Shown: positions 4,787-59,808 of the stretch, in pieces | Layout of the letters: the number at the start of each line of letters is the position of its first letter | Numbering within the stretch: the first letter of the stretch is position 1 | NCBI RefSeq assembly: GCF_000469545.1 | Contig: NZ_KI273060.1 | Location: forward strand, 1-64,000 | Direction of reading: 5' to 3' | Length of the DNA: 64,000 nucleotides | DNA from: Mitsuokella sp. oral taxon 131 str. W9106 | Lineage (GTDB): Bacteria > Bacillota > Negativicutes > Selenomonadales > Selenomonadaceae | Made by a program: the position numbers and the translations under genes | The notes under the pieces: generated by a model | Told to the model about the DNA's origin: nothing | The model's database searches: none | What the model saw: the letters and a program-made list of their open reading frames with translations, nothing else

Positions 4787-5665
4787 ATGGATCTCGTAAT
4801 CTCTACCATCTCACAAGGCTTCCTCTGGGCGCTGCTCGCGATCGGCGTCTACCTGACGTTCCGCGTGCTCGATATCGCCGACCTCACCGTCGAGGGAAGC
4901 TTTCCCCTCGGCGCGGCGACGGCGGCGACGCTGCTCACGGCGGGCTTCCATCCCATCGCCGCGATCCTCGCCGCCTGCATCGCGGGCATGATCGCGGGTG
5001 TCGTGACGGGCTTTCTCTGCACAAAGCTCAAGATCCCCGCGCTGCTCGCGGGCATCCTCACGATGATCGCCCTCTACTCCGTCAACCTGCGCATCATGGG
5101 CAAGGCGAACCTGCCGCTTTTGCAGCAGGACACGATTTTCACGATCTGGCACTTTGGCATGGACAAGATGACGGCGACGCTCGTCATCGGCGCCGTCATC
5201 GTCCTCATCGTCGCTGCGGCGAACTACTGGTTCTTCGGTACGGAAATCGGCGCTGCCGTCCGCGCGACGGGCGACAACCCGCACATGATCCGCGCGAACG
5301 GCATCAACACCGACGCAATGGTCGTGCTCGGCCTTTTGATGTCGAACGGGCTCGTCGCCATCTCGGGCGCGCTCGTCGCCGAGAGCAACGGATTCGCGGA
5401 CGTCGGCATGGGCGTCGGCACGATCGTCATCGGTCTCGCCTCCGTCATCATCGGCGAGGTGCTGTTCGGCACGCGCAGTTTCTTCAACTGCCTCATTTCC
5501 GTCATTTTAGGCTCGATCGTATACCGCGCCGTCATCGCGATCGTCCTGCAAATGGGCATGCCGCCGAATGACCTCAAGCTCTTCACGGCGATCCTCGTCG
5601 CGATCGCGCTCTCGATGCCGCTCATCAAGGCGCGCTTCGCCTCCATGCGAAAGGCGGTGAGGTGA
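4787..5665 (+). CDS. ABC transporter permease (TrpY-like)
   Basis: Integral membrane permease of the branched-chain/ribose-type (BPD_transp_2) superfamily, partner of the upstream lipoprotein and downstream ATPase. The 292-residue product has about eight to nine hydrophobic segments, starting with a helix at residues 8-27 and the characteristic VLDIADLTVEGSFPLG stretch seen in this subfamily. The GGAG overlapping the preceding stop serves as ribosome binding site. Its stop overlaps the ATP-binding gene by one base (TGATG), indicating translational coupling. Confidence 0.9.
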   Translation: MDLVISTISQGFLWALLAIGVYLTFRVLDIADLTVEGSFPLGAATAATLLTAGFHPIAAILAACIAGMIAGVVTGFLCTKLKIPALLAGILTMIALYSVNLRIMGKANLPLLQQDTIFTIWHFGMDKMTATLVIGAVIVLIVAAANYWFFGTEIGAAVRATGDNPHMIRANGINTDAMVVLGLLMSNGLVAISGALVAESNGFADVGMGVGTIVIGLASVIIGEVLFGTRSFFNCLISVILGSIVYRAVIAIVLQMGMPPNDLKLFTAILVAIALSMPLIKARFASMRKAVR

Positions 5666-6459
5666 TGCTCCGGATCGAGAACATCTCCAAGACATTCAAC
5701 CCCGGCACGATGACCGAAAAGCGCGCGCTCGAAGGCGTGAGCCTTCACCTCGCGCCCGGCGACTTCGTCACCGTCATCGGCGGCAACGGCGCGGGCAAGA
5801 GCACGCTCATGAACTCCATCGCAGGCTCGTTTCCCGTCGATGCGGGCAGCATCTTGATCGCGGGCACGGACATCACGAAATGGCCGGAGCACAAGCGCGC
5901 GAAATTCATCGGACGCGTCTTCCAGGACCCGATGATGGGCACGGCGGCGAACATGATGATCGAGGAGAACCTCGCGATCGCCGCGCGGCGCGGCCGTACG
6001 CCGACGCTCCGCTGGAGCAGCTCCCAAAAAGAGCAGGCGCACTACCGCGAGCTGCTCGCCGGGCTCGGCCTCGGCCTTGAAGACCGCCTCGAATCGAAAG
6101 TCGGCCTGCTCTCCGGCGGTCAGCGGCAGGCGCTCACGCTCCTCATGGCGACCCTGGAGAGCCCAAAGCTCCTGCTGCTCGACGAGCACACGGCGGCGCT
6201 CGATCCGAAGACGGCGGGAAAAGTCCTCGCGCTCACGGAGAAAATCGTCACCGAAAGCCGGCTCACCACACTCATGATCACGCACAACATGCGCGATGCC
6301 CTGCGCCTCGGCAACCGCCTCATCATGATGTTCGGCGGCCGCATCCTCTTCGACGTCGGCGGCGAGGAAAAAAAGCACCTGACCGTAAAAGACCTGCTCG
6401 CCATGTTCGAAAAAGCCGCCGGAAGCGAGCTCGCAAACGACAGCCTGCTGCTTAGCTGA
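5665..6459 (+). CDS. ABC transporter ATP-binding protein (TrpZ-like)
   Basis: Cytoplasmic ATPase energising the importer encoded by the two genes before it. The 264-residue product has Walker A GGNGAGKST (about 39-47), a Q-loop in VFQDPMMGT, signature LSGGQRQ (about 150) and Walker B LLLLDEHTAALD, followed by the switch His in MITHN. It starts at the ATG of a TGATG overlap with the permease stop; a GTG one codon earlier is also possible. A bidirectional-looking hairpin follows at 6489-6518. Confidence 0.93.
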   Translation: MLRIENISKTFNPGTMTEKRALEGVSLHLAPGDFVTVIGGNGAGKSTLMNSIAGSFPVDAGSILIAGTDITKWPEHKRAKFIGRVFQDPMMGTAANMMIEENLAIAARRGRTPTLRWSSSQKEQAHYRELLAGLGLGLEDRLESKVGLLSGGQRQALTLLMATLESPKLLLLDEHTAALDPKTAGKVLALTEKIVTESRLTTLMITHNMRDALRLGNRLIMMFGGRILFDVGGEEKKHLTVKDLLAMFEKAAGSELANDSLLLS

Positions 6460-46542: not shown

Positions 46543-47151
46543 TTATGCCTGCACCGATTCGATGTAGTGCACGATGAGGCCAGCCGCCTGTTCGAGCGAA
46601 CAGGTTCCTGTATTGATGGAAAGATTGTAGTATTTGGGGTCGCCCCACTTGCGGTTCGTGTAGTGGCTGTAGTAGCCGCCGCGCTTCAAATCCTCCGCAT
46701 TGAGATCGCTCAGCGTACGACCCTCGTACGTTTCTTTTCCGCGTTTCGCACGAAACGCATCGTCAGCGCAGATATAGAAGGAATACGTATCGGGACGGTC
46801 GCGCAGCACGTAGTCGGCACAGCGTCCGAGAAGGATGCACGGCGCGTCCTCTGCGAGGCGGCGAATGACCTCGCTCTCCGTCTCAAACATCTTATCGTTG
46901 AGCGAATGCGGGCTTTCCTTCACGCCGAACAGGTAGAACGGCGTAAAGGAAAGCGGCAGCGGCGGGACTTCCTCCTCAAACTTCTTCAGTTTCTCAAAAC
47001 CCATGTCGCCGACACCAAGCTTTTCTGCCGCCTGGCTCACAATCTGGCGGTCGTAGAGACGCCAGCCGAGCTTCTTTGCAAGGATCTGGCTGAGCTCGCG
47101 CCCGCCCGAACCGTATTCGCGGCTTATGGCAATGACGGTGCTTTCTTTCAT
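46543..47151 (-). CDS. Cytidylate-kinase-like protein
   Basis: P-loop kinase-like protein of 202 residues of the cytidylate_kin2 family. The N-terminus reads AISREYGSGGRELSQILAKKLG, a glycine-rich loop that lacks the classical GKS/T lysine arrangement; CILLGRCADYVLRD is the second family signature. GAGGAGG lies before the ATG. It begins 14 bases after tctC, so it is probably the last gene of the transport operon. Its substrate is unknown; the family is distinct from true Cmk and often sits beside transporter genes. Confidence 0.84.
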   Translation of the reverse strand: MKESTVIAISREYGSGGRELSQILAKKLGWRLYDRQIVSQAAEKLGVGDMGFEKLKKFEEEVPPLPLSFTPFYLFGVKESPHSLNDKMFETESEVIRRLAEDAPCILLGRCADYVLRDRPDTYSFYICADDAFRAKRGKETYEGRTLSDLNAEDLKRGGYYSHYTNRKWGDPKYYNLSINTGTCSLEQAAGLIVHYIESVQA

Positions 47152-47165
47152 GGAAAGGCCTCCTC

Positions 47166-48164
47166 TTATTTCAAGTACTGCTCAAACTTCATAAAGTGGT
47201 CGAGCTGTTTCTGAAGCTCTGCCTTCGACTCTTCCACGCTTAAGACCCACGGCGCCTGGAAGTTCATCTTCTCGACTTCTGCCTTGTATTCGGCGTTTTC
47301 CTTGACGATCTTCGTGATGGCTTTGTTGAGCTTTTCGACGATGGCAGGATCCGTCCCCTTCGGCGCAAGCACGACATAATATGTGTCAACGGAAAGTTCC
47401 GGGTACGTCTCATCGACGGCAGGCGTATTCGGAAGCATTTCCGAGCGTGCTGAGAGGAGTGTTCCGAGTGACTTCAACTGTCCGCTCTCAATGTATTCCT
47501 TCGCGCCGCTATATGGGATGGAGGTCGCATCGACATGACCGCCGAGCAGCGCCGTCAGCCGATTTGAAGCATCGCCCGTATCGACGACGTTGAACTTCGC
47601 TCCGATGGACTTATCCATGATGACCGAAGCAATGTAGACTCCGCCGCCCATCGAAACACCGTACTTGATGATATTCGGATTCTGCTTCGACGCCTCGACG
47701 AGATCCGCGATGGAATTGTACGGCGAATCGGCGCGTACGACGACGTTCTCGCCTGCCGACTTGCCGTATACGGCAATCGGCTCGAACGACTCATAACTGA
47801 AATCGGAAAGCCCCGTCGCCTTGTTGCCGATGAGCGCCGCCGAATTCGTTGCGATAATCGTATAGCCGTCCTTGTCGCCGTCTTTGTATTGCTCAAGTGC
47901 GATCGACCCATTTGCGCCCGTCACATTGTTCGGCACAACGCTCTGCCCGAGTTCCTTTTCGAGCAAGCGGGCGAGAAGCCTTGCATTGTAATCCGTATCG
48001 CCGCCTGCTCCGTGCGTGACGATGAGATTGATCGGCTTGTTGGGATAATTGCCCACATCCCCGCCCGCGCGCTCGCTGCCGCCTCCGCAGCCCGCTGCTG
48101 CCAGGAGGCACGCGCCGATCACAATGGTCCCGAACATTCTTTTTGCCTTTGCTGTCCATTTCAT
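47166..48164 (-). CDS. tctC: Tripartite tricarboxylate transporter substrate-binding protein
   Basis: Extracytoplasmic binding protein of the TTT (TctC/Bug) family, 332 residues. A lipoprotein signal peptide ends in LAAAGCGGG. YPNKPINLIVTHGAGGDTD is the family signature at the start of the mature part and holds the loop that contacts a carboxylate ligand. The ATG at 48164 has AAAGAGG upstream. It follows tctA closely and completes a B-A-C order. The ligand is unknown but by context is a sugar acid or related carboxylate. Confidence 0.92.
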   Translation of the reverse strand: MKWTAKAKRMFGTIVIGACLLAAAGCGGGSERAGGDVGNYPNKPINLIVTHGAGGDTDYNARLLARLLEKELGQSVVPNNVTGANGSIALEQYKDGDKDGYTIIATNSAALIGNKATGLSDFSYESFEPIAVYGKSAGENVVVRADSPYNSIADLVEASKQNPNIIKYGVSMGGGVYIASVIMDKSIGAKFNVVDTGDASNRLTALLGGHVDATSIPYSGAKEYIESGQLKSLGTLLSARSEMLPNTPAVDETYPELSVDTYYVVLAPKGTDPAIVEKLNKAITKIVKENAEYKAEVEKMNFQAPWVLSVEESKAELQKQLDHFMKFEQYLK

Positions 48165-48204
48165 ATCAATCGCCTCTTTCTTTCCATTCCTATGATTCCT
48201 TTTC

Positions 48205-49734
48205 CTATGCATTCCCTTTTGATTCCTGCTCCGCCGCCGCGAGCTTTTTCGCCTCGCGGCGGTTCATGACGAAAGAGAATATGAGCGCCGCCACGGCGAT
48301 CGCCGTAAGCACGGCTGCAATGGGGTGATCGAGCAGCCCTTCGCCCGTCCCCGTGAGCTGCATGACACGGCGGAAGTTCATCTCAAAGATAGGTCCCAGG
48401 ATGACGCCCATGATCACGGGGACGGACGGGATGTGCGTCTTGACCATGGCATAGCCCAGGACGCCGAATGCCATGATGCTGTAGACATCGAAGATACGGT
48501 TGCTGTTTCCGAACGCGCCAATCGCGCAGAGCACCATGATAATCGGCAGGAGGAAGTATTTTGGCACGGTCAGCACGCGAATGAAGACGCGTATGCCGAA
48601 AAGCTCGATGAAGAGCATGGCAATCGCCGAAAGGAAGAGCGCCGTGAAGAGCCCGTAGATGACGGCTCCGCTCTTCTCAAAGATGAGCGGTCCGGGCGCG
48701 ATGTTGTGCACCATGAGACCGCCGAGCAGGATTGCCGTGACCGCATCGCCGGGGATACCGAGCGTCAAGAGCGGGATCATCGCGCCGCCGATCCCCGCAT
48801 TGTTCGCCGTCTCGGATGCGACGACGCCGTCGATGATGCCCGTTCCGTACTTCTCCGGTGTCTTGGACTGGTTCTTCGCCGCCGTGTATGAGAGCATGCC
48901 CGAAATCGCACCGCCGATCCCCGGCAGGATGCCGATGATACAGCCGATGACAGACGAGCGCAGCGCGTTGAACTTCTGTCCGAAGAACTCGTGCAGCGTG
49001 AAGCCAAAACCTTTGATATGGACGTTCGTCTCGATGCGCATATCCCGTTTCTCGCGCACTTCTTCCGCCGCTTTCGCGATCTCCGTGATGGCAAACAGCC
49101 CAATGAGGATTGTGAGAAGCGCAAAGCCGCTCGTGAGCTCACTCATGCCGAACGTGAATCGCTTCATCGAATCGACAGGGGAAAGTCCGACTGTCGCAAT
49201 CATGAGTCCGAGGAATGCCCCCATGAGCCCTTTGACGAGGTCGCGCCCCGCAAGGCTGATGACGAGCGCGAGAGCACAGGCCGCAACGGCGCAATACTCA
49301 AACGCGCCGAACTGGATCGCGACGCTCGCAAGCGCCGGCGAGATTGTCACGAGCATGAGAAGCCCGAAAATTGTGCCGACAAAAGAAAAGACAACGCCGA
49401 CGCCGAGCGCCTTTCCGGCCTCGCCCTTTGCCGCGAGCGGCGCTCCGTCAAATGTCGTTGCGATCGAGGACGGCGTGCCGGGGATATTCAGCAGGATCGC
49501 GGCGACGAGACCGCCGGATATGCCGCCGACATAGAGTGCGATCAAGGTCGAGAGCCCCTGCACGGGCGTCATCGTATAGGTGACGGGCAGGAACATGATG
49601 AGCGCGAGTGTCGCCGTGAGTCCCGGCACAGCGCCGAAGATGATGCCGATGAAGACGCCGAGCACGATAAAGCCGAGTGTCAGCGGATCGGTCACGACGG
49701 ACAACGCGCCTTGAAGCATAATCGAAGGATCCAT
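48205..49734 (-). CDS. tctA: Tripartite tricarboxylate transporter large membrane subunit
   Basis: TctA-family carrier, 509 residues with about twelve hydrophobic segments. LNIPGTPSSIATTFDGAPLA and the related TLGIPGDAVTAILLGGLMVH are the two conserved loops of this family. It starts at the ATG at 49734 with a moderate GGTGAG site. It lies 25 bases after tctB and 40 before tctC. With TctB and TctC it forms a cation-coupled, binding-protein-dependent importer. Confidence 0.94.
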   Translation of the reverse strand: MDPSIMLQGALSVVTDPLTLGFIVLGVFIGIIFGAVPGLTATLALIMFLPVTYTMTPVQGLSTLIALYVGGISGGLVAAILLNIPGTPSSIATTFDGAPLAAKGEAGKALGVGVVFSFVGTIFGLLMLVTISPALASVAIQFGAFEYCAVAACALALVISLAGRDLVKGLMGAFLGLMIATVGLSPVDSMKRFTFGMSELTSGFALLTILIGLFAITEIAKAAEEVREKRDMRIETNVHIKGFGFTLHEFFGQKFNALRSSVIGCIIGILPGIGGAISGMLSYTAAKNQSKTPEKYGTGIIDGVVASETANNAGIGGAMIPLLTLGIPGDAVTAILLGGLMVHNIAPGPLIFEKSGAVIYGLFTALFLSAIAMLFIELFGIRVFIRVLTVPKYFLLPIIMVLCAIGAFGNSNRIFDVYSIMAFGVLGYAMVKTHIPSVPVIMGVILGPIFEMNFRRVMQLTGTGEGLLDHPIAAVLTAIAVAALIFSFVMNRREAKKLAAAEQESKGNA

Positions 49735-49759
49735 TTTCTCACCTCATTTCCTACTTCTC

Positions 49760-50251
49760 CTACTTCAAAATGCCGGGCGGCAGCATGACCATCAGGTATT
49801 TCGTAAAGACGAAGTACAGGCTGATGGAAAAAAATACGGCAAGCCCCGCTGCAATGCCAAGCACGCGCCGCGAGTGCTTCTCCAGCGGCGTCAGCACCCA
49901 AATCTGCAAGAGGATGTAGGCAATGCTCGTCAAAATAAAGCCGACGGGTCGCATGAGTGCGGCGTAAAGGATCAGCAGGACGAAGGTGCAGACGACCTCG
50001 CGCCGATGCCGAATCGCCTCCAAGATCTCCCGCAAGCCCTTCGTCTCCTTCTCTTTGCGCATCGCGAGGAGCGCGCGGACGATGAGGACGAGAGAGAGTG
50101 CGAGCAGGCATCCGCCCCAAATCTTCGGCACGGTCTGCGCGTTGACACCTGCCGTCGCTGCCCCGCCGAAAACCTTGACCGTCGTCGCCTGAACGAGGTA
50201 AAACCCGGAAAACACCGCACCGGCAATGCCGGTCATCAAATCGCTTTTCAT
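49760..50251 (-). CDS. tctB: Tripartite tricarboxylate transporter small membrane subunit
   Basis: TctB-family protein of 163 residues with four hydrophobic segments, the small partner of TctA. The family is poorly conserved, so the call rests on length, topology and its place directly before tctA. GGAGCGG lies before the ATG. Separated from the upstream alcohol dehydrogenase gene by 53 bases. Confidence 0.87.
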   Translation of the reverse strand: MKSDLMTGIAGAVFSGFYLVQATTVKVFGGAATAGVNAQTVPKIWGGCLLALSLVLIVRALLAMRKEKETKGLREILEAIRHRREVVCTFVLLILYAALMRPVGFILTSIAYILLQIWVLTPLEKHSRRVLGIAAGLAVFFSISLYFVFTKYLMVMLPPGILK

Positions 50252-50304
50252 CGTTATCCGCTCCGTTTCCTATGGGCATTCGCTTTCTTTTGGCTCTCCA
50301 TCTC

Positions 50305-51453
50305 TCACATGACTTTCGCGTAAATGGAACGGATATCGTCGAGCGAAAGCTTCTTGCAGTTGTTAACGAGCAGGCGCTGCTGCTGGCTGCCCGCATCGAC
50401 GAGGAAGTCGATGTCGCCTGCCGCAACGCCGAACTCCTTGAGGCTCGTCGGAATCTTCGTATCGCGGACGATGGAGGCAATCTCCTCGATGATATGGTCC
50501 GCCTTTTCCCCCTGCGCCCTTTCCGCAAGCTCCGGATAGACGATATCCGAGAGCATCGCGAGGCGATCCGTGCAGGCATCCTCGTTGAACGCCATGACGT
50601 GTGCGAAGAGAATCGCATTCGATACGCCGTGCGCGATATGGTACTTGCCGCCGAGCGGGTACGAGAGCGCATGGACGGCCGTCGTTCCAGAGCCCGTGAT
50701 GGCAACGCCGCCGTAGAATGCGCCGAGCATCATGTTCATCTTCGCTTCGAGATCGCCGGCATCCGCCCAAGCCCGGCGGATGTTGTGGAAGATTTTCTTT
50801 GCACCCTCGCCCGCGTAGGCATCGCTCAATGCCGTCGCCTTGTTCGAGGTGAAGCACTCGACGCAGTGCGCAAGCGCGTCGATGCCCGTCGCCGCGATGA
50901 TCTTCGGCGGCAATTTCGCAATCATCTGCACATCGAGAATAACGTAATCGGGAATCATGCAGTCGTTTACGATGCCCTGCTTCGATTCCTTTTCGGGAAT
51001 GGCGACGATCGCGTTGCAGGTCGCTTCAGACCCCGTTCCGCATGTCGTCGGGAGCATGACCGTCTTCGTCTGCTTCTTCGCGATAGCGCTGTCCGCGAGG
51101 AGATCCCTAAGCGTGTAGGGCGCGCCGACGATGAGGCTCGCGAGCTTCGCTGCGTCCATGACGCTGCCGCCGCCCACGCCGACGATGAGCTCCGGCTTTT
51201 CCCGGACTTCGCCAAGGACGCGCTCGATATCGGCGACGGCCGGCTCTGCCGTGAGATCGTCCACGACCGTGACCGAAGCCGCCTCCCCGCAGAGCGCTTC
51301 GACGCCCTTTGTGAGCCCCGCGCCGCGAATCCCCCTGTCCGTGAAAATCAAAACGTTTTTCACGTTTTCCTTTGCGAGAATCTCCGCGAGCTTCTCGCTG
51401 CTCCCCTGTCCTGCAAACAGCACGGACGGGATGGTGATTTGACCGTTCTTCAT
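50305..51453 (-). CDS. Iron-containing (group III) alcohol dehydrogenase
   Basis: NAD(P)-linked dehydrogenase of the Fe-ADH family, 382 residues. NAD-binding GVGGGSVMDAAK is at about residues 95-106, and PTTCGTGSEAT follows. Metal ligands are seen in TGIDALAHCVE and KYHIAHGVSNAILF. AGGAG lies before the ATG at 51453. In this operon it could reduce an aldehyde from acid-sugar cleavage (for example glycolaldehyde) or oxidise a hydroxy acid; the substrate cannot be told from sequence. Confidence 0.9.
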   Translation of the reverse strand: MKNGQITIPSVLFAGQGSSEKLAEILAKENVKNVLIFTDRGIRGAGLTKGVEALCGEAASVTVVDDLTAEPAVADIERVLGEVREKPELIVGVGGGSVMDAAKLASLIVGAPYTLRDLLADSAIAKKQTKTVMLPTTCGTGSEATCNAIVAIPEKESKQGIVNDCMIPDYVILDVQMIAKLPPKIIAATGIDALAHCVECFTSNKATALSDAYAGEGAKKIFHNIRRAWADAGDLEAKMNMMLGAFYGGVAITGSGTTAVHALSYPLGGKYHIAHGVSNAILFAHVMAFNEDACTDRLAMLSDIVYPELAERAQGEKADHIIEEIASIVRDTKIPTSLKEFGVAAGDIDFLVDAGSQQQRLLVNNCKKLSLDDIRSIYAKVM

Positions 51454-51512
51454 TCGAATCGCTCCTAACATAACATAAAAAATAAAATGATTTGTGTTTT
51501 TGGTATATTTGC

Positions 51513-52661
51513 TCAAAATGGAAAAGATAAACTTTTCCATCGAACAATACCATTGATAATCGTAACTTGCGGCAAAATCATCTGCGTGCCATCGAAGGAT
51601 TCTCCCATGCGATTTTGCAAATGGAATGGATGTTTTTCAACGCGAAAAATAGTCAAGTTTGCCCGTGCCTGTTCTTTCCACGTTCCAATCCCATCTGACA
51701 GGCGATGGATAGCAGCAGGATTCACGGTGCAAGCAGCAATTACGTCTAGAAGTGAGACCCCTAGATTCAACCATTTCGACAGAACAACAGGCAGCCCCCA
51801 GCACATATTATGAAACAGTCCATTTTTTGTCATATCCGTTGAAATGATGTCCGGCAAGAACCCGCCTTTAATAGCAGGTCGAATGACATGATAACAATGA
51901 TTGATTCGCGCATCTGCCGAGTCGAAATAAACCCCGCGTTCTCTCGCCTCGAAAACGGCGCGTTTTACCTGTCCATCGTCATCTATTATCGTACTTCCTT
52001 TGCCTTGGTAGATATGACATAATAAATCCCCAGGACGCATTTTCTCCACAATCTCCTCCATAGGACAAGGTGGATTTGTAACGTGAACTGTAATGGAACA
52101 GCCGAGCTCATCTGCGAGAGCAAGTGCTTTATCAAGTACGTTATCCGAAAATCCTGCTACGACCTCTGCCCCATATCGAAGCTTCAATCCTCGCGCATGT
52201 TCTGCATCCTCCATAAAGATTGTACGCAATGCCTCCACGTCATACGCGGCAGGATCAACATTTTCAGGATAAAATTCGGTAATCTGCCCAGATCGTGATA
52301 CATTAACGGAATAGAAAATAGGGATTATACTGCGATCCACGATTTCTCGCTTGAAACTAGCCCAGTTTCCGGTACCAGAACTACCACCATCTATGGCGGC
52401 TGTAACGCCCATCGGAATCAGTGCCAGATCCGCTGCAAAGCCAGGCTCTGTTCCATCCTTGAACACGTGGACATGAGAATCGATCCAACCAGGACTGATA
52501 TAGCACCCCGTTGCGTCAATTCGTTCTCTCGCTTCAATTGGTTCATCTGTCGAAACACGAATAAGTTTTCCCTTAGAAATACCAAGTGTCCTTTGTTCAA
52601 TTGTTTTCGCTTCTGGATCGATGATACGTCCATTCTCAATCACGAGATCAAGCTGCGCCAT
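51513..52661 (-). CDS. Amidohydrolase of the EF_0837/AHA_3915 type
   Basis: Metal-dependent hydrolase of the amidohydrolase superfamily, 382 residues, most like a subfamily of putative deacetylases or amidohydrolases found next to sugar-acid genes. IDSHVHVFKDG supplies the first two His ligands, VHVTNPP and LCHIYQGKG later His ligands, and STDMTKNG the catalytic Asp. Base composition is clearly poorer in GC than that of the genes before and after, like the adjoining MFS remnant. A weak ribosome binding site (GGAG) precedes the ATG. Confidence 0.84.
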   Translation of the reverse strand: MAQLDLVIENGRIIDPEAKTIEQRTLGISKGKLIRVSTDEPIEARERIDATGCYISPGWIDSHVHVFKDGTEPGFAADLALIPMGVTAAIDGGSSGTGNWASFKREIVDRSIIPIFYSVNVSRSGQITEFYPENVDPAAYDVEALRTIFMEDAEHARGLKLRYGAEVVAGFSDNVLDKALALADELGCSITVHVTNPPCPMEEIVEKMRPGDLLCHIYQGKGSTIIDDDGQVKRAVFEARERGVYFDSADARINHCYHVIRPAIKGGFLPDIISTDMTKNGLFHNMCWGLPVVLSKWLNLGVSLLDVIAACTVNPAAIHRLSDGIGTWKEQARANLTIFRVEKHPFHLQNRMGESFDGTQMILPQVTIINGIVRWKSLSFPF

Positions 52662-52688
52662 AATTCAATTTCTCCTTCCGAAACGATC

Positions 52689-53415
52689 TCAATCTTCCAC
52701 CCCAATCTTTTTTGTGAAGTTAATGAGCAATGAGAACAGCCCAATGCCAACGCCAAAACAAGCAAAGAGCACAAGTGCAAGGAAGTATGAACCAGTCGAT
52801 CCTACGATTGCACCGATAACGAGTGGAATAATAGCACCGCCAACATTGCCGACGCAGTTCATGCAACCACCGACCGTGCCGATGCTTTCACGTTGTGCGA
52901 GTGCAGCAGGGACAGTCCAATACAAACAGCCCGACCACTTTTGGAAGAACAAGATTGCCAAGTGACGAGCCTACATCGACGAGCGCACTGCCGCGTGAAC
53001 GCTCTGTGACGGGCAACCAAATAGATTGAAGCTTCGCTCCCGCAGGATAAATAGGCGCTTCTGAAACACCAAGCAAAACGCGAATGAACATAAACGCCTT
53101 GCTACTGCTAATAAGCCCTGTAATGACTTGAAACACGCCCCAACAAAGACCTCCAATAAGGAGAATCTTACCGGGTTTGAAGCGATCACAAAGCCAACCG
53201 CAAGGAATCTGCATGATAGCGTATCCCCAGAAAAACGCCGATAAAATCGCGCCAACTATCTCAGGAGAGAATTGAAGTTCCTCTTTGATTTGCGGCATAC
53301 AGACGGAAATTACCGCACGGTCAATGTAATTGATTGTGCATATGATCGCTAGCATGAAAAAAATTCTCCATCGTGCGTTTGATCGTTTGGTCATTTCTAA
53401 AGACGGTTGTTCCAC
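52689..53415 (-). pseudogene. MFS sugar-acid transporter remnant (internal deletion and frameshift)
   Basis: Broken gene of the anion:cation symporter group of MFS carriers. The N-terminal 150 or so residues (GTG start after AAGGAG, with YIDRAVISVCMPQIKEEL and CDRFKPGKI loop) cover about the first five helices. The reading then shifts frame near 52940 and continues as the last three helices (GTVGGCMNCVGNVGG, then FLALVLFACFGVGIG). About 180 residues expected between them are missing. Neither piece could work as a carrier. It shares low GC with the amidohydrolase gene. A sequencing error could explain the frameshift but not the missing middle. Confidence 0.85.
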
Positions 53416-53473
53416 TGCTTGTCACTCCTTTATTTAATTTTCTTAATGAACTATCGATATAAGACAACCTTCT

Positions 53474-54457
53474 TTATTTTTCCCATCTGCCATGCCGATA
53501 GGCGTCCGGATTGCAGACCTTGTCCCATTTCTCCCCGCGGATGACGGCGAGGACCCCTTCCGCTGCAAGGGTCGCGACGCCCGATGCCGCCTCCTTCGTC
53601 TGTCCTGCCATATGCGGCGTGACGATGAGGTTGTCGCAGGAAAAGAGCGGATCGTCCGTCCGGATCGGCTCCTGCACGACGACGTCAGTCGCAGCAGCTT
53701 GGATCCAGCCTTCATGAAGTGCGCGTACGAGCGCCGCTTCATCGATGATACCGCCGCGCGCGCAGTTGACGAGGATCGCCGTCTTCTTCATGAGCTGAAG
53801 CTCACGCGCGCCGATCATGCCGCGCGTCGCGTCCGTAAGCGGCGTATGGACGGAGACGGCATCGGCTTCCTTCAGGATGTCCTCCATCTCGGCACGGTAT
53901 CCGTAGCCCCAGTCCGCAACGGTCTCCGCCTTGAGGAAGGGGTCGTAGACGAGGACTTTCATGCCGACGCCCGTCGCCAGCTCGGCGAGGATCTTGCCAA
54001 TATGCCCGCAGCCGATGAGACCGAGTGTCTTGCCGTACAGCTCGTACGCCTTGTACTCGCTTCGTATGCCGAAATTCCCCTTGCGCATTTCATGGTCGCA
54101 TACGAGCATGTTCTTCGCGCAGGCGAAAATCATCGCCATCGCGTGTTCGGCAACGGAGCGCGTATTCGCGCCCGGTGCGATGACGACAGGGATGCCGAGC
54201 TCCGTCGCGGCCGCGACGTCCACGTCGTCGACGCCGACGCCGGGGCGGCCGATCGCCTTTAGGTTTTTGCACTGCAGCATCGTCCCCTTGTCAATCGAGC
54301 CGATGCGGATGATGACGCCGTCCGCATCCTTAAGCGCGGGGAGCATGTCCTCCGGCTTTCCTGAGCCGATGATGGCGACGTCTGCGCCTGCCGTTTCGAG
54401 GACGGCCATGCCGGCATCGTGCAGGCGATGGGAAATTACGATTTTGGGTGCTGCCAT
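53474..54457 (-). CDS. D-2-hydroxyacid dehydrogenase (SerA-like)
   Basis: NAD-dependent dehydrogenase of the D-isomer 2-hydroxyacid family, 327 residues. The dinucleotide fold has LGLIGCGHIGKILAE near residue 145, and the catalytic residues lie in NCARGGIIDE (Arg), a glutamate near QEPIRTDDP, and TPHMAGQT (His). There is no ACT domain, so it is unlike full-length biosynthetic SerA. GAGGAGG lies before the ATG. It starts ten bases after the DapA-like gene. By context it oxidises or reduces a sugar acid. Confidence 0.9.
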   Translation of the reverse strand: MAAPKIVISHRLHDAGMAVLETAGADVAIIGSGKPEDMLPALKDADGVIIRIGSIDKGTMLQCKNLKAIGRPGVGVDDVDVAAATELGIPVVIAPGANTRSVAEHAMAMIFACAKNMLVCDHEMRKGNFGIRSEYKAYELYGKTLGLIGCGHIGKILAELATGVGMKVLVYDPFLKAETVADWGYGYRAEMEDILKEADAVSVHTPLTDATRGMIGARELQLMKKTAILVNCARGGIIDEAALVRALHEGWIQAAATDVVVQEPIRTDDPLFSCDNLIVTPHMAGQTKEAASGVATLAAEGVLAVIRGEKWDKVCNPDAYRHGRWEK

Positions 54458-54467
54458 TTCTTCCTCC

Positions 54468-55343
54468 TCAGTACTGCCTGAACACTTCCGTCAGCGCGTC
54501 TTTTATCGCAGGATTCGTGCAGTTCGACGGACGGCGCGCAGGACCGACTTTCCAGCCGCGCATGTTGACGGCGAGCTTGACGACGGAGTTCGGATTGCCC
54601 ATCTGCATGACGTTGCGGAAGGGGCGGATCTTCTTCTGCGCTTCATTTGCCTTTTCGATATTTCCCTCTTTCCAGTATTGGTAGATGCTGACCATGAGCT
54701 CGGGGAAGACGTTGGAGCAGCCCGAGATCGCGCCCGTGCCGCCCGCCATGAGCGTCCAGAGGATGAGGGAGTCGCTGCCTGCGAGGACGTTGATGCCGGC
54801 CTTCGTATTCTCGATGTACTTGAGCGTGTTGTCGAAGCTGCCGCTCGAGTCCTTGATCCCGATGATATTTTCATGGGATTCCATGAGCTTCCTGACCGTC
54901 GTAAAGGCGATATTGTTGCCTGTGCGCGCGGGGATGTTGTAGAGGAGCATCGGGAGCTTCGTCGACGCGGCGACAGCGGAAAAATGCTCCAATAGATCGT
55001 CCTGCGTAACGGCGACGAAGTACGGGGAGATGACGGAGAGGCAATCGACGCCGAGCGCTTCCACGCGCTTGGTGAATTCCACCGTCTCCTTGGTCGTGAT
55101 GCAGCCCGTGCCCGCATAGACCGGGACGCGCCCGCCTACCGCCTCGACCGCCGTCTTGATGACGGCAAGCTTCTCCTCCGAATCGAATGCGTAGAACTCG
55201 CCATTCGTTCCCATCGGAAAAATGCCGTCTACCCCCGCCTCGATGAGATGTTGGATAAATTCCCGGTACATCCCTGCATCGAAGGTTTCCTCTTCCGTCA
55301 GTGCCGTGACGACAGGGGTAATCAATCCTTTTGCTTCAAACAT
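54468..55343 (-). CDS. DapA/NAL-family aldolase or lyase
   Basis: Class I aldolase-type TIM barrel, 291 residues. The Schiff-base lysine lies in GIKDSSGS (about 161) and the catalytic tyrosine in LYNIPARTGNN (about 133); FPMGTNGEF matches the carboxylate-binding loop. The family includes dihydrodipicolinate synthase, but also 2-keto-3-deoxy-sugar-acid aldolases. Its place between pdxA2 and a hydroxyacid dehydrogenase favours a catabolic 2-oxo-acid aldolase here. AAGGAG lies before the ATG. Confidence 0.9.
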   Translation of the reverse strand: MFEAKGLITPVVTALTEEETFDAGMYREFIQHLIEAGVDGIFPMGTNGEFYAFDSEEKLAVIKTAVEAVGGRVPVYAGTGCITTKETVEFTKRVEALGVDCLSVISPYFVAVTQDDLLEHFSAVAASTKLPMLLYNIPARTGNNIAFTTVRKLMESHENIIGIKDSSGSFDNTLKYIENTKAGINVLAGSDSLILWTLMAGGTGAISGCSNVFPELMVSIYQYWKEGNIEKANEAQKKIRPFRNVMQMGNPNSVVKLAVNMRGWKVGPARRPSNCTNPAIKDALTEVFRQY

Positions 55344-55412
55344 CTTGCACGCTCCTTTTTTTCTCTCTATTGAATCATATTGGTATGGCGAACTGCTTGA
55401 AGAATATATCTT

Positions 55413-56426
55413 TTAATCCTTCAGGTCAGCAGCAAAGCGAACCTTTGCCATCTGTGCGCCGAGCTTCAGCGCCTCGACCATGCTGTCAGGGCTTGCCTTT
55501 CCCGTGCCGGCAACGGCGAATGCCGTGCCGTGGTCAACCGAGGTACGGATGATCGGCAGTCCGACCGTGACGTTCACGCCGCAGTCGAAGCCGAGCACCT
55601 TGATGGGAATATGCCCTTGATCGTGGTACATGACAACGACGATATCAAATGCATCGAGGTTTGCCGCACGGTGAAACACGCTGTCGGGCGGAATCGGGCC
55701 CTGCACGTTCCAGCCCTTCTCCTGCACTTCGCGCACGGCGGGTGCGATTTCCCGCTCGTCCTCGTCGCCGAAGAGCCCGCCCTCGCCGCAGTGCGGATTG
55801 AGTCCTGCGACGGCAATGCGTGGTTTTTGGATGCCCATGAGCGTGAGCGTCTCTTGTGCAAGGCCGATGACCTTTGCGACGCGCTCCTTTTTGACTGCAT
55901 CCGGCACATCGCGAAAGGCAATGTGCGTCGTCACATGGATAACGCGCAGCTTTGGGCTCGTCAGCATCATCGAGAAATCCTTCGTCCCCGTCAGATGGGC
56001 GAGGATTTCCGTGTGACCGGGAAAGTGAACGCCGCCCAGATTGAGCGCCTCCTTATTGAGCGGCGCCGTGACGACGGCGTGCACCGCATGAGCCATCGCA
56101 TGCCTGCAGGCGCTTTCGATGTACGCGTACGCCGCGCGCCCTGCCCTGCCGTCTACCTTTGCAAACGGAAGGTCTTGCGGCAGATTGTGCAGGTCGATGA
56201 CGTCGATCATGCCGCTGTCCCCGCCGCCCTCTGCCGGCGCATCCACGGCGCGGCATTTCAGCGGCACGCCTGTGATGGAGACGGCCCGCTCCATCATGCC
56301 GAGATCGCCGAACACGACAGGGCGTGCGAGCCCGTACATCTCCTTCTTTGCGAGCGCCTTTGCGATGATCTCAGGGCCGATGCCTGCCGCATCGCCCATC
56401 GTGATCCCGAGAATTGGTTTTTTCAT
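55413..56426 (-). CDS. pdxA2: PdxA2-type 4-phospho-sugar-acid dehydrogenase
   Basis: Divalent-metal, NAD-dependent oxidative decarboxylase of the PdxA family, 337 residues. ITMGDAAGIGPEI is the start signature, with HFPGHTE and MYHDQGHIPIK supplying metal-binding His residues. The PdxA2 subgroup acts on 4-phospho-D-threonate or -erythronate, giving dihydroxyacetone phosphate, rather than in vitamin B6 synthesis. The ATG overlaps the stop of the kinase gene by four bases (ATGA), strong evidence that the two act in sequence. Confidence 0.92.
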   Translation of the reverse strand: MKKPILGITMGDAAGIGPEIIAKALAKKEMYGLARPVVFGDLGMMERAVSITGVPLKCRAVDAPAEGGGDSGMIDVIDLHNLPQDLPFAKVDGRAGRAAYAYIESACRHAMAHAVHAVVTAPLNKEALNLGGVHFPGHTEILAHLTGTKDFSMMLTSPKLRVIHVTTHIAFRDVPDAVKKERVAKVIGLAQETLTLMGIQKPRIAVAGLNPHCGEGGLFGDEDEREIAPAVREVQEKGWNVQGPIPPDSVFHRAANLDAFDIVVVMYHDQGHIPIKVLGFDCGVNVTVGLPIIRTSVDHGTAFAVAGTGKASPDSMVEALKLGAQMAKVRFAADLKD

Positions 56427-57736
56427 GCTGTCGTTTCCTTCCTTTCGCCCTTTTCGCCCACATGCGTTCCACGGATTGCGGCAAGCGCATGGACGAATGC
56501 GCGGGGGCTTCCGAACGCGCCCGCTTTCGTCACGATGCAGAGCGGCTCCCGTGCGCCCTCGATGCGTCCGAGCGGAACGCCCGGCTCGACTTCCCGGAGC
56601 ACTTCGATCTGCTGCACGCCCATGGCGCGGCAGATATGCACCGCCGTATCGCCGCCCGTCGCGACGATTCCGGCTACGTCCGCGAAATCGAGCCGCTTTG
56701 CGATCGCTGCGATGTGCGCTGCGACGCGCTCGCTGACCGCCCGCCCCGATAGGCCATGCGTGCGGCCGATGCGCACCGCCTCCGCCACGTCCGCATCGCT
56801 TTCGGCAGAGGCGAGAAGCACATCCTCGCCTGCTGCAACCAGCGATTCGATTGCCTTCGCATCCGCCGCTGCCGCACCTTCGTCTTCCAAAATGTGCCGA
56901 GCCGAAAGGCGCAGCGTCCGCACGCCGCACATTTCGTTCAGCGTGCGGATCTGCCGCTGCGTCGTATGGCTGACGCTCCCCGCAAAGACGAGCACCGAAC
57001 CATCCCGAACCGGCATGGGCTTCGGCTCGCTTCCCTTCCATCCATAAAAGGAGGCAAGCGAGCCCGCAAGCCCTGCCGAGCCAACCCAGAGGATATTGCC
57101 CTTGCCGCGGAGCGCTGCGAGCAGCCGCGCGAAGTCCGCATCCTCGGCGATGTCGGACACAATCCATCGACGCCCTTCTGCGAGTGCCTCCGCCATTCGT
57201 CTTCTCGCTTCTTCTTCGCCCGCACGGAGCGTTTGGAGCGGAAGCACCGTGACGGACTTGCCCGGCGCTTGCTGCGCAAGCATGGCAGGAAGGTCGGACT
57301 CATGGACAGGCGTCTTCGGCGCATGGCCGATTTCCGTCCGCTCGATGGGGACGCCGTGCAGCAGGTGTACCCCGTCCACTGTCGTGCGCCCCTGTGCGGG
57401 ATAGGCAGGCGCAATCACGACGAGCGAAGGGGCAAGCGCATCGTCGGCCGCCGCGACCTCTGCCCCCCAGTTGCCGCGCAGCGTCGAATCGATCTTCTTG
57501 TAGATGCAGGACGGCTTGCTTTCGCGCAGGGAACGGCATATCGCGTGCATCCGCCGATACGCCTCCCCGCACGCGAGTTCCCGGCTGTCCGTATCGACGA
57601 CGACGACCTCCCCGTCTCCAGGGAACCCATCCTCTATGCCGAGCTGGACGAACGCGTGCATGCCTTGCCTCGCAAACTGCAACGCTGTGTCATTCGCCCC
57701 GGTCAAATCATCTGCAATCACGGCTAAGCGCAACAT
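56423..57736 (-). CDS. Four-carbon acid sugar kinase (DUF1537, DtnK-like)
   Basis: Kinase of the four-carbon acid sugar family (DtnK/DenK/OtnK group), 437 residues. The N-terminal signature IADDLTGANDTALQFARQG (residues 7-25) and YKKIDSTLRGNWG are intact, as is the C-terminal VATGGDTAV nucleotide motif. Known members phosphorylate D-threonate, D-erythronate or oxo-tetronates at C4. It is first in the operon behind a sigma-54 promoter and coupled to pdxA2, matching the D-threonate/D-erythronate degradation design. The exact substrate is inferred. Confidence 0.91.
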   Translation of the reverse strand: MLRLAVIADDLTGANDTALQFARQGMHAFVQLGIEDGFPGDGEVVVVDTDSRELACGEAYRRMHAICRSLRESKPSCIYKKIDSTLRGNWGAEVAAADDALAPSLVVIAPAYPAQGRTTVDGVHLLHGVPIERTEIGHAPKTPVHESDLPAMLAQQAPGKSVTVLPLQTLRAGEEEARRRMAEALAEGRRWIVSDIAEDADFARLLAALRGKGNILWVGSAGLAGSLASFYGWKGSEPKPMPVRDGSVLVFAGSVSHTTQRQIRTLNEMCGVRTLRLSARHILEDEGAAAADAKAIESLVAAGEDVLLASAESDADVAEAVRIGRTHGLSGRAVSERVAAHIAAIAKRLDFADVAGIVATGGDTAVHICRAMGVQQIEVLREVEPGVPLGRIEGAREPLCIVTKAGAFGSPRAFVHALAAIRGTHVGEKGERKETTA

Positions 57737-57776
57737 GCCATCACCTTTCTTCCCGTTCTCTCACTCCTATACTCAC

Positions 57777-57792
57777 GCAAGAATCGTGCCAA
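57777..57792 (-). promoter_or_regulatory. sigma-54 promoter of the acid-sugar operon
   Basis: On the minus strand TTGGCACGATTCTTGC matches the -24/-12 consensus (TGGCAC-N5-TTGC) exactly, about 40 bases before the kinase start. Confidence 0.9.
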
Positions 57793-57827: not shown

Positions 57828-57886
57828 CAAAAAAAGCAGGCTTGTTGCAAGAAGAAACATATTGTATCTTTCTGCAACAAGCCTGC
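57828..57886 (-). terminator. terminator of the regulator gene; possible activator site
   Basis: A perfect 14-bp stem (57836-57849 with 57873-57886) is followed by a run of Ts on the minus strand, directly after the sigma-54 activator gene. The arms contain TTGTTGCA/TGCAACAA, and a further TGCAACA lies at 57884-57890, about 80-110 bases upstream of the sigma-54 promoter, where an activator would bind. Confidence 0.75.
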
Positions 57887-57906: not shown

Positions 57907-59808
57907 TTATGGATTGTCTCGATTTTCCTTTCTCTTGATTTTCCGCCAAAGCGTCGTGCGGTGAATGCCTAGGCGCTTTGCCGCGCGGCTGCAGCTGCCG
58001 CCTTCCTCCGCAAGGATGCGCCGCACGGTTTCCTCCTCCACATCGCGGAGCTCGCCATGCAGCGCGCCATCTCCTTCCCGCGGGGAGCCCGGCACGTTTC
58101 CCCGGTTCTCTTCCCCATCGTCCGCCCATGCGGCAAGGACGGCATCGCGCGTGATTTCCGCCCCGTCCGAGAGGAGCATGAGCCGCTCCATCACATTGGC
58201 GAGCTGGCGGATATTGCCCGGCCATGCATGCGCGGCAAGCGCGCTTTCCGCATCTTCCGCGATTCCCGCAATCGCGGGATTGAGCTTTTTCATCTTGACG
58301 ATCATGGCGCGCGCGAGCAGCGGGATGTCTGCCCGCCGCTCGGCAAGCGTCGGCATGTGGATGCGCAGGATGTTGAGCCGATAGTAGAGATCGGCGCGGA
58401 ATGTCCCTTCCTCCACCATGCGGGCGAGGTCCTGGTTCGTCGCCGCCACGATGCGCACGTCGACGGGGATGACGCTCTCGCCGCCGAGCTTCATGACCTC
58501 GTGCTCCTGCAAGACGCGCAGGAGACGCGACTGGAGCGAGGTCGGCACCTCGCCGATCTCGTCGAGAAAAATCGTCCCGCCGTGCGCGAGCTCGAAGAGG
58601 CCTTGCCTGCCGCCGCGCCGTGCCCCCGTGAATGCGCCGTCCACATAGCCGAACAGCTCGCTTTCCAAGAGATTTTCGGGCAGCGCCGCGCAGTTGACCG
58701 CGACAAACGGGCCGCTCCTGCGGCTGCTCCGATTGTGGATGCCCTGTACGAGCATTTCCTTGCCCGTACCCGACGCGCCCGTTATGAGAATCGTCGAATC
58801 GGTCAGCGCATACCGCATCGCCTTTCTCTTCATCGCCTCGCAGGGCGCAGACGAGCCGATGATATCTTCCATGTGGTACTTCGCCGTCAGTCCCTTCGCC
58901 GCAAGCTTTTGGCGGATGCGCTGCTCGGTCCGCTGCACCTCCGATATGCGCTGCACGCGGTAAATCGTCATGCCGTCAGGCAGATCCGACGTTTTCACGA
59001 GCGCCTTTGTCCCGTAAAGATCAAGGAAGTCTTCCTCAGAAGGCTTGGCGAGAAGCGCAGGGCAGATGCGTGCGAGCGGCTTTCCGATCACTTCGCAGCG
59101 CACGCGGCGCACAAGGCGCTCCGCCTCCGGGTTGAAAATCGTAATGCGCCCCTCGTGATCCGTCGCGATGATCGCGTCCTGGGACTGATGGACGACCGCG
59201 CACAGCATTTCCGACTTGGCTTCGTCCTGCTGCACGACGCGCGCGATGAGGAGTGCCTCCGTGAGCGCCTGAAAAATCGCCTGCCGACCCGAATCGATTG
59301 TCTTCGCCGCAAGTCCCTGCGCACGCGCGACGCGCACCGAAACGGCATCGCCGATGAGGAGATCGACGCCGTCCTCCATCGCATGCGCGATCTTCTCTTT
59401 GGCCTCCGCCTCGCCCTTGATCTTGATTTCGACGAGCTTCATGCGCAGGAGCGCGCCGAGATCATCGCAGCCATAGACCATATTCTCAAAGCCCGACACG
59501 CCCACCTTTTTCGCCTTGCTCCCCGCGCCGGAGGCGAGCACGGCGCGCATGATATCGACGAGCGAGACCTGGATGCGCACGACGGGAACATGCGTCGTCT
59601 CCTCGATGAGGCCTGCCGTGCCGCCACGGCTCACGATGACCTTGATGCTGTCCTGCATCTCCCGCTGCACGATATCCTTTGCCGCCGCGAGGTCGGCGAC
59701 GACGACGCGGAACAGACCGCGCCGCTTCCCCATGCGCTCGTCGAGTACCCGGCGCACCTCGTCCGCGAGCGCAGGAAATGGCGCGATGACCAAAATCCTT
59801 GCCTGCAA
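57907..59808 (-). CDS. PrpR_N/PAS/AAA+/Fis sigma-54-dependent activator
   Basis: Enhancer-binding protein of 633 residues. An N-terminal PrpR_N sensor domain (about 1-180, binds small carboxylates or sugar-acid phosphates in relatives) is followed by a PAS domain (about 200-300), an AAA+ domain with Walker A GASGTGKE (about 343), the sigma-54-contact loop GAFTGA and Walker [11 protein letters not shown], and a Fis-type helix-turn-helix ([19 protein letters not shown]). The TTG at 59808 lies six bases after AGGAGG. It lies just upstream of the sigma-54 promoter and is the obvious activator of the kinase operon. Confidence 0.93.

Follow-up and report, generated by a model that had tools for sequence, protein, structure and literature searches.

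The window, a stretch of 64,000 nucleotides that forms part of contig C11 in the 2.3 Mb genome of Mitsuokella sp. oral taxon 131 str. W9106, carries a long putative operon on its minus strand, extending from 57736 down to 46543 (Table 1). In minus-strand order, the locus comprises a transcriptional activator, a DUF1537 kinase, PdxA2, a DapA-family aldolase, a SerA-like dehydrogenase, a broken MFS transporter gene, an amidohydrolase, an Fe-type alcohol dehydrogenase (Fe-ADH), the TctB, TctA and TctC subunits of a TTT importer and a Cytidylate_kin2 protein. All of the genes named in an earlier, sequence-only reading of this DNA are present, and the ATGA coupling that it described is confirmed: the stop codon of the kinase gene and the start codon of PdxA2 overlap (gap of -4). 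The remaining intergenic gaps measure 10-69 bp, except for 812 bp between the SerA and amidohydrolase genes. Terminator-like sites within the operon are no commoner than in shuffled sequences (16 compared with 12.4, sd 4.1), and therefore indicate no clear split. The TctB-A-C order is retained in 12 related loci, and a Cytidylate_kin2 gene at the operon end is shared by the window and the relative L022 only (75% orthologue). The closest named relatives of the DapA protein are from Mitsuokella and from another Selenomonadaceae MAG.

Table 1. Features of the locus, listed in minus-strand order.
Feature	Position	Strand	Basis
REG, sigma-54-dependent activator: PrpR_N sensor-PAS-AAA+ (GAFTGA)-HTH_8	57907..59808	-	Pfam; translation
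Inverted repeat TTGTTGCA-N22-TGCAACA(A), proposed activator site	57842..57880	-	Single copy genome-wide
-24/-12 (sigma-54) promoter element TTGGCACGATTCTTGC	57777..57792	-	Strict pattern TTGGCAY-N5-TTGC
KIN, four-carbon acid-sugar kinase (DUF1537), with D-threonate kinase as best-scoring model	56423..57736	-	Pfam SBD_N/NBD_C; NF047819
PdxA2, D-threonate-4-phosphate-dehydrogenase-like	55413..56426	-	Scores against solved PdxA2 proteins
Class I aldolase of the DapA family, putatively cleaving a 4-hydroxy-2-oxo diacid by retro-aldol reaction	54468..55343	-	Residues; structure model
SerA-like D-2-hydroxyacid dehydrogenase, 327 aa, not long enough to include an ACT domain	53474..54457	-	Pfam
Broken D-galactonate-type MFS transporter gene	52689..53415	-	tblastn
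cog3964-type amidohydrolase, full length, judged foreign	51513..52661	-	Megasphaera identity; GC3
Fe-type alcohol dehydrogenase, proposed D-threuronate reductase	50305..51453	-	Pfam
TctB, small membrane subunit of TTT importer	49760..50251	-	Precedes TctA; L022 orthologue 73%, others in same place
TctA, large membrane subunit	48205..49734	-	90% to L022 TctA
TctC, solute-binding lipoprotein	47166..48164	-	Solved TctC/Bug proteins, E 8e-35
Cytidylate_kin2 protein at operon end	46543..47151	-	PF13189

The proposal that sigma-54 controls this acid-sugar operon is supported by the core of the promoter element, by an RpoN encoded in the genome and by a GAFTGA activator lying directly upstream of the kinase gene, which the sequence-only reading had overlooked. 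This activator scores 402 bits on TIGR02329 (PrpR), below the cut-off of 499, and on this measure is PrpR-like and not PrpR. The promoter element, TTGGCACGATTCTTGC, is located about 40 bp ahead of the kinase gene and is the sole site in the window with the strict pattern, for which there are nine sites in the whole genome compared with two for a control pattern. It had been described as exact, which is valid for the conserved core alone, since one mismatch (TTGCG) appears when the last base is required to be A/T. The identical 16-base element also occurs at G000:C9:194173 and G000:C12:87631 in the same genome. In many Negativicutes the activator gene likewise adjoins the kinase gene, and of 14 distinct loci that have the activator next to the kinase, 12 show a strict site upstream of the latter, compared with none of the 24 loci that lack such a neighbour (Fisher p of 3e-8, the relatedness of loci being ignored); DeoR-type regulators occur in many of these 24. 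The inverted repeat lies at about -88/-57 relative to the sigma-54 element, inside a strong terminator-like hairpin at the end of the REG gene (hairpin z of -6.8). The relative L022 has two sigma-54 promoters, one before the kinase gene and one between the SerA and ADH genes, and the same repeat precedes both at nearly the same distance (about -88/-57). It is therefore likely to be the activator site.

The 812 bp gap is accounted for by the broken MFS gene, from which about 186 codons are missing internally and in which the frame changes near 52917. In tblastn, residues 3-162 and 349-434 of the intact Megasphaera MFS protein of L023 are matched at 87 and 94%, respectively, in different frames. 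The amidohydrolase encoded next to it is 65-67% identical to Megasphaera copies. Its GC3 is 0.39 and that of the MFS-amidohydrolase piece is 0.39-0.45, compared with 0.69-0.80 for the other genes of the operon. The insert has its relatives in Megasphaera (L023, L026 and L038), where an MFS and an amidohydrolase gene likewise lie side by side. In L022 the order is activator-kinase-PdxA2-DapA-SerA-ADH-TctBAC-CMK, with neither of these two genes, and homology to the window ends near the end of SerA and restarts at the ADH start codon. Low GC3, Megasphaera relatives and absence from L022, whose operon is otherwise identical, mark the MFS-amidohydrolase piece as foreign, a later arrival from another bacterium and the sole foreign part of the operon. 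Among the genes previously listed, the amidohydrolase alone proves to be a lineage-specific addition, and it arrived together with the MFS gene, which had been missed. The insert occupies the place of the spacer that bears the second sigma-54 promoter in L022, so that the ADH-Tct half of the operon may now rely on read-through. The broken MFS gene also shows that the locus is now in partial decay, a point that weighs against the serial scheme favoured below.

To see the operon among its relatives, 44 DapA-like loci were found, of which the 41 close ones, from Negativicutes, Succinivibrionaceae and Pasteurellaceae, were used for counts. Fe-ADH is present in 40 of these, PdxA2 in 39 and the kinase in 37 (in two cases fused to PdxA2), some of the absences being due to contig ends; the transporters differ and are of the TTT, MFS, DASS, SSF or TRAP type. 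The same core is found with a sialidase-like protein in Klebsiella, Pantoea and Caballeronia, and in a different layout in Agrobacterium and Sinorhizobium. No kinase was seen in the stretches examined from Pantoea, Agrobacterium and Sinorhizobium, and the Caballeronia cluster encodes a kinase-PdxA2 fusion. Fusions of kinase and PdxA2, of about 770-830 residues, are encoded in L032, L033, L006 and L101. The gene set had been called unusual and the aldolase had been considered an addition outside the pathway; neither view is borne out, as the kinase, PdxA2, aldolase and Fe-ADH recur throughout the 41 related loci, and DapA and Fe-ADH are found in nearly every one. This recurrence indicates that the aldolase and Fe-ADH belong with the kinase and PdxA2, and on gene content the most plausible view is that they make up the first half of a single pathway, upstream of that pair, and are not extras. 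The earlier suggestion of a wider or different substrate range is supported. The gene content is widespread, and the function of the operon is without assignment in the literature searched.

Kinase and PdxA2 alone constitute the known D-threonate module, and one may wonder whether the operon serves D-threonate or D-erythronate and has simply collected enzymes for side substrates, with the aldolase and the dehydrogenases working in parallel and not upstream, a view close to that of the sequence-only reading. Pairs without DapA, accompanied by a LarA-type racemase (L078-L080) or by GntP (in the genome itself, L072), would fit such an arrangement. We nevertheless consider it rather unlikely, given that DapA and Fe-ADH accompany kinase-PdxA2 in different phyla, where SerA, the transporters and the regulators are exchanged for others.

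The sequence of the aldolase offers indications as to its substrate. The protein scores 221 bits on TIGR00674 (DHDPS), above the cut-off of 206, and a structural search with its model (pLDDT of 91) returned DHDPS-fold chains at tied Z, which does not discriminate the substrate. DHDPS builds a C7 keto diacid from pyruvate and aspartate semialdehyde, which is a C4 aldehyde acid; run in reverse on a trihydroxy C7 keto diacid, an enzyme of this type would release pyruvate and 2,3-dihydroxy-4-oxobutanoate. Asn45, Ser163, Arg138 and Phe107 (E. coli numbering) are invariant in 38 of 38 aligned orthologues; with Phe at position 107, the DHDPS triad Thr44-Tyr133-Tyr107 is incomplete. Positions 45 and 163 are the equivalents of Asn78 and Ser198 of human 4-hydroxy-2-oxoglutarate aldolase (HOGA), a cleaving enzyme; these two residues are reported to be specific to it, to bind the distal carboxylate and the 4-OH and to distinguish HOGA from DHDPS (PMC3188589). 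Position 138 is an arginine in the window protein and in DHDPS, and a leucine in E. coli NanA and YagE. The arginine is also present in Pantoea, Agrobacterium and Sinorhizobium homologues. One Caballeronia homologue has a lysine at this position, which speaks against the scheme favoured below, and a homologue encoded in a PTS context in Enterococcus has an asparagine. The other DapA homologues of the genome are of the DHDPS type with a full triad (contig C8) and of the NanA type (contig C9). As for Fe-ADH, 4-hydroxybutyrate dehydrogenase is among its best NCBIfam matches, none of which is above its own cut-off.

The solved proteins closest to DapA in sequence include YagE, which is a KDG aldolase, and D-galactonate-type MFS and KdgT-type transporters lie beside some of the loci. 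A KDG-type aldolase would cleave a hexonate-derived 2-keto-3-deoxy acid into pyruvate and glyceraldehyde, Fe-ADH would reduce the glyceraldehyde and the kinase branch would handle a separate acid. This is improbable in our view: Arg138 is kept where YagE has a leucine, the genes of the window operon include no sugar-acid dehydratase, and the constant kinase-PdxA2 partners would be left without a reason.

The kinase obtains 264 bits on NF047819 (D-threonate kinase DtnK; cut-off of 450), which is still its best DUF1537 model, and PdxA2 obtains 357 bits on PRK03371 (D-threonate 4-phosphate dehydrogenase; cut-off of 583). The latter protein scores 314-316 bits against the solved PdxA2 proteins 6e85 and 2hi1, compared with 198 against E. 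coli-type PdxA. That the kinase, PdxA2 and ADH all score below what NCBIfam requires for the functions named speaks against a serial scheme ending in D-threonate breakdown. The genome encodes two PdxA proteins and no PdxJ was found in it, so that neither of the two would serve the standard B6 route. A B6-related salvage, in which kinase and PdxA recycle 4-hydroxythreonine, is hardly credible here, even though the DUF1537 kinase STM0162 can phosphorylate this compound (review PMC10971088) and a 2026 paper reads the kinase-PdxA pair of an E. coli sister cluster in this way (PMC12928451), because without PdxJ the route through that enzyme is closed to the product of PdxA, and because the presence of an importer, an aldolase and an activator speaks for a catabolic role.

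The genome has a second DUF1537 kinase and PdxA pair (G000:C25, L072 7789-12281), with a GntP transporter and no adjoining aldolase. In L078, L079 and L080, kinase and PdxA2 are found under the same kind of activator with a LarA-type nickel racemase; L078 and L080 also have a PanB-type gene, and L078 and L079 a strict sigma-54 site. By their gene content, these three loci look like a variant for the C2-epimerisation of D-erythronate to D-threonate.

The reading that we favour, with a probability of roughly 0.55, is that aldolase, reductase, kinase and PdxA2 act in series on a C7 2-keto-3-deoxy sugar diacid. The operon would thus ensure the substrate-induced, sigma-54-driven catabolism of this seven-carbon compound, and the route that we infer, inducer and substrate included, would run as follows. 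The PrpR_N activator would sense an acid of the pathway and open the -24/-12 promoter, and TctABC would import the diacid. SerA would convert the C2 hydroxyl, where present, to yield the keto acid, which DapA would cleave between C3 and C4 into pyruvate and D-threuronate (2,3-dihydroxy-4-oxobutanoate). Fe-ADH would then reduce the aldehyde of D-threuronate with NAD(P)H to give D-threonate, the DUF1537 kinase would form D-threonate 4-phosphate, and PdxA2 would oxidize and decarboxylate the latter to DHAP, CO2 and NADH. In net terms, the core would turn the diacid and ATP into pyruvate, DHAP and CO2 (with ADP), and would be redox-neutral if the reductase uses NADH.

The likeliest substrate would be Dha (3-deoxy-D-lyxo-2-heptulosarate), a rare sugar of the pectin RG-II, either unmodified or else acylated or reduced at C2; Dha itself is a tentative choice, suggested by stereochemistry and gene content. 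By Fischer bookkeeping, only the D-lyxo and D-xylo forms among the eight heptulosaric stereoisomers yield D-threonate, and plant Dha is D-lyxo (PMC12168206). Plants have no sialic acid, but they do have Kdo and Dha, two similar sugars that are confined in them to RG-II (PMC12168206). Several hosts of the cluster are plant-associated. Two other candidates were rejected: cleavage of Kdo would give D-arabinose and not a C4 acid, and cleavage of 3-deoxy-hexarates would give a C3 acid. Dha would yield the C4 acid required by the remaining enzymes of the operon. We know of no natural source of 3-deoxy-heptarate, and no pathway linking heptulosaric acid with an aldolase or with threonate was found in the literature searched.

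SerA is encoded in 28 of the 41 loci and a sialidase-fold protein in ten: 27 loci have SerA only, nine GH33 only, one both and four neither, an alternation with a Fisher p of 2e-5 when the relatedness of loci is ignored. The protein found in place of SerA adopts the sialidase fold of GH33 (Z of 37, rmsd of 2.1 over 309 residues) with no visible RIP-motif arginine, and usually goes together with a YhcH protein. A studied YhcH member opens the sialic acid ring, supplying the open ulosonic acid to the aldolase (PMC8141875). By analogy, the sister operons with the GH33 fold and YhcH support an ulosonic acid as the substrate. Since SerA alternates with this ring-opening cassette, we infer that it also feeds DapA, by oxidizing the C2 hydroxyl; this is the weakest part of the scheme, and the role of SerA is uncertain. 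The Megasphaera/Pectinatus loci add a LarA-type isomerase and a cog3964 amidohydrolase, which is consistent with C2 chemistry; some cog3964 amidohydrolase members hydrolyse 2-acetoxy acids. Against the scheme, the SerA, LarA-type and cog3964 proteins could instead act on C2 of a tetronate. C2 epimerization of erythronate by SerA and ADH as the core role was rejected, because there are loci with the kinase, PdxA2, DapA and ADH but no SerA. In L021, from the same genus, positions 5172-6347 encode a GH33-like protein of a kind labelled exo-alpha-sialidase elsewhere, which probably does not act on sialic acid.

If the substrate is Dha, the operon family could represent the first recognized catabolic pathway for this plant-specific heptulosaric acid, via D-threuronate and D-threonate and with interchangeable front ends, a possibility that we put forward with reserve. 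With the same reserve, SerA might serve C2-reduced forms, and the sialidase-fold protein with YhcH ketosidic forms. RG-II, a component of plant cell walls, is common in the diet; for its sugar Dha, the literature searched contained no described breakdown route and no paper on what becomes of it once it is released. The recurrent gene set, with its stereochemically exact prediction, makes this fate testable with four purified enzymes. Were the scheme correct, it would amend the labels of lysine biosynthesis, B6 synthesis and exo-alpha-sialidase now given to clusters of this kind in bacteria that live in the gut or rumen, spoil beverages, associate with plants or cause disease; D-threonate would also gain a natural source.

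Finally, the operon can be compared with known systems. The D-threonate pathway consists of DtnK and PdxA2 (Zhang et al., 2016, cited in PMC10971088). The window shares with it the kinase and PdxA2 families and their coupling, which goes as far as fusion in some relatives; however, it scores under the DtnK and PdxA2 model cut-offs and adds an upstream aldolase and reductase, D-threonate being a proposed intermediate and not the nutrient. Region GR6 of the pathogenic E. coli BEN2908 is a sister cluster, related by its authors to B6 synthesis, and the available part of their paper proposes no catabolic route (PMC12928451). GR6 and the Klebsiella, Pantoea, Caballeronia and rhizobial clusters have in common with the window DapA, Fe-ADH, PdxA2 and, in most, the DUF1537 kinase. 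They carry a sialidase-like protein (with YhcH in several), DASS, SSF or ABC importers and, where a regulator is seen, one of the DeoR type, whereas the window has SerA, a TTT importer and a sigma-54 activator. Sialic acid catabolism (NanA, YhcH and sialidase) likewise relies on an ulosonic acid aldolase of the same superfamily, and its anomerase and GH33 fold recur in the sister operons; the window differs in the proposed aldehyde product, a C4 acid that would be reduced and then phosphorylated, and in Arg138, where NanA has a leucine. With human HOGA and bacterial DHDPS, the aldolase shares the fold and the Schiff-base lysine, as well as the Asn/Ser pair of the former and the Arg138 of the latter. 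It departs from them by a phenylalanine in place of Tyr107 and by a proposed substrate that is longer than 4-hydroxy-2-oxoglutarate and devoid of the amino group of DHDPS chemistry.
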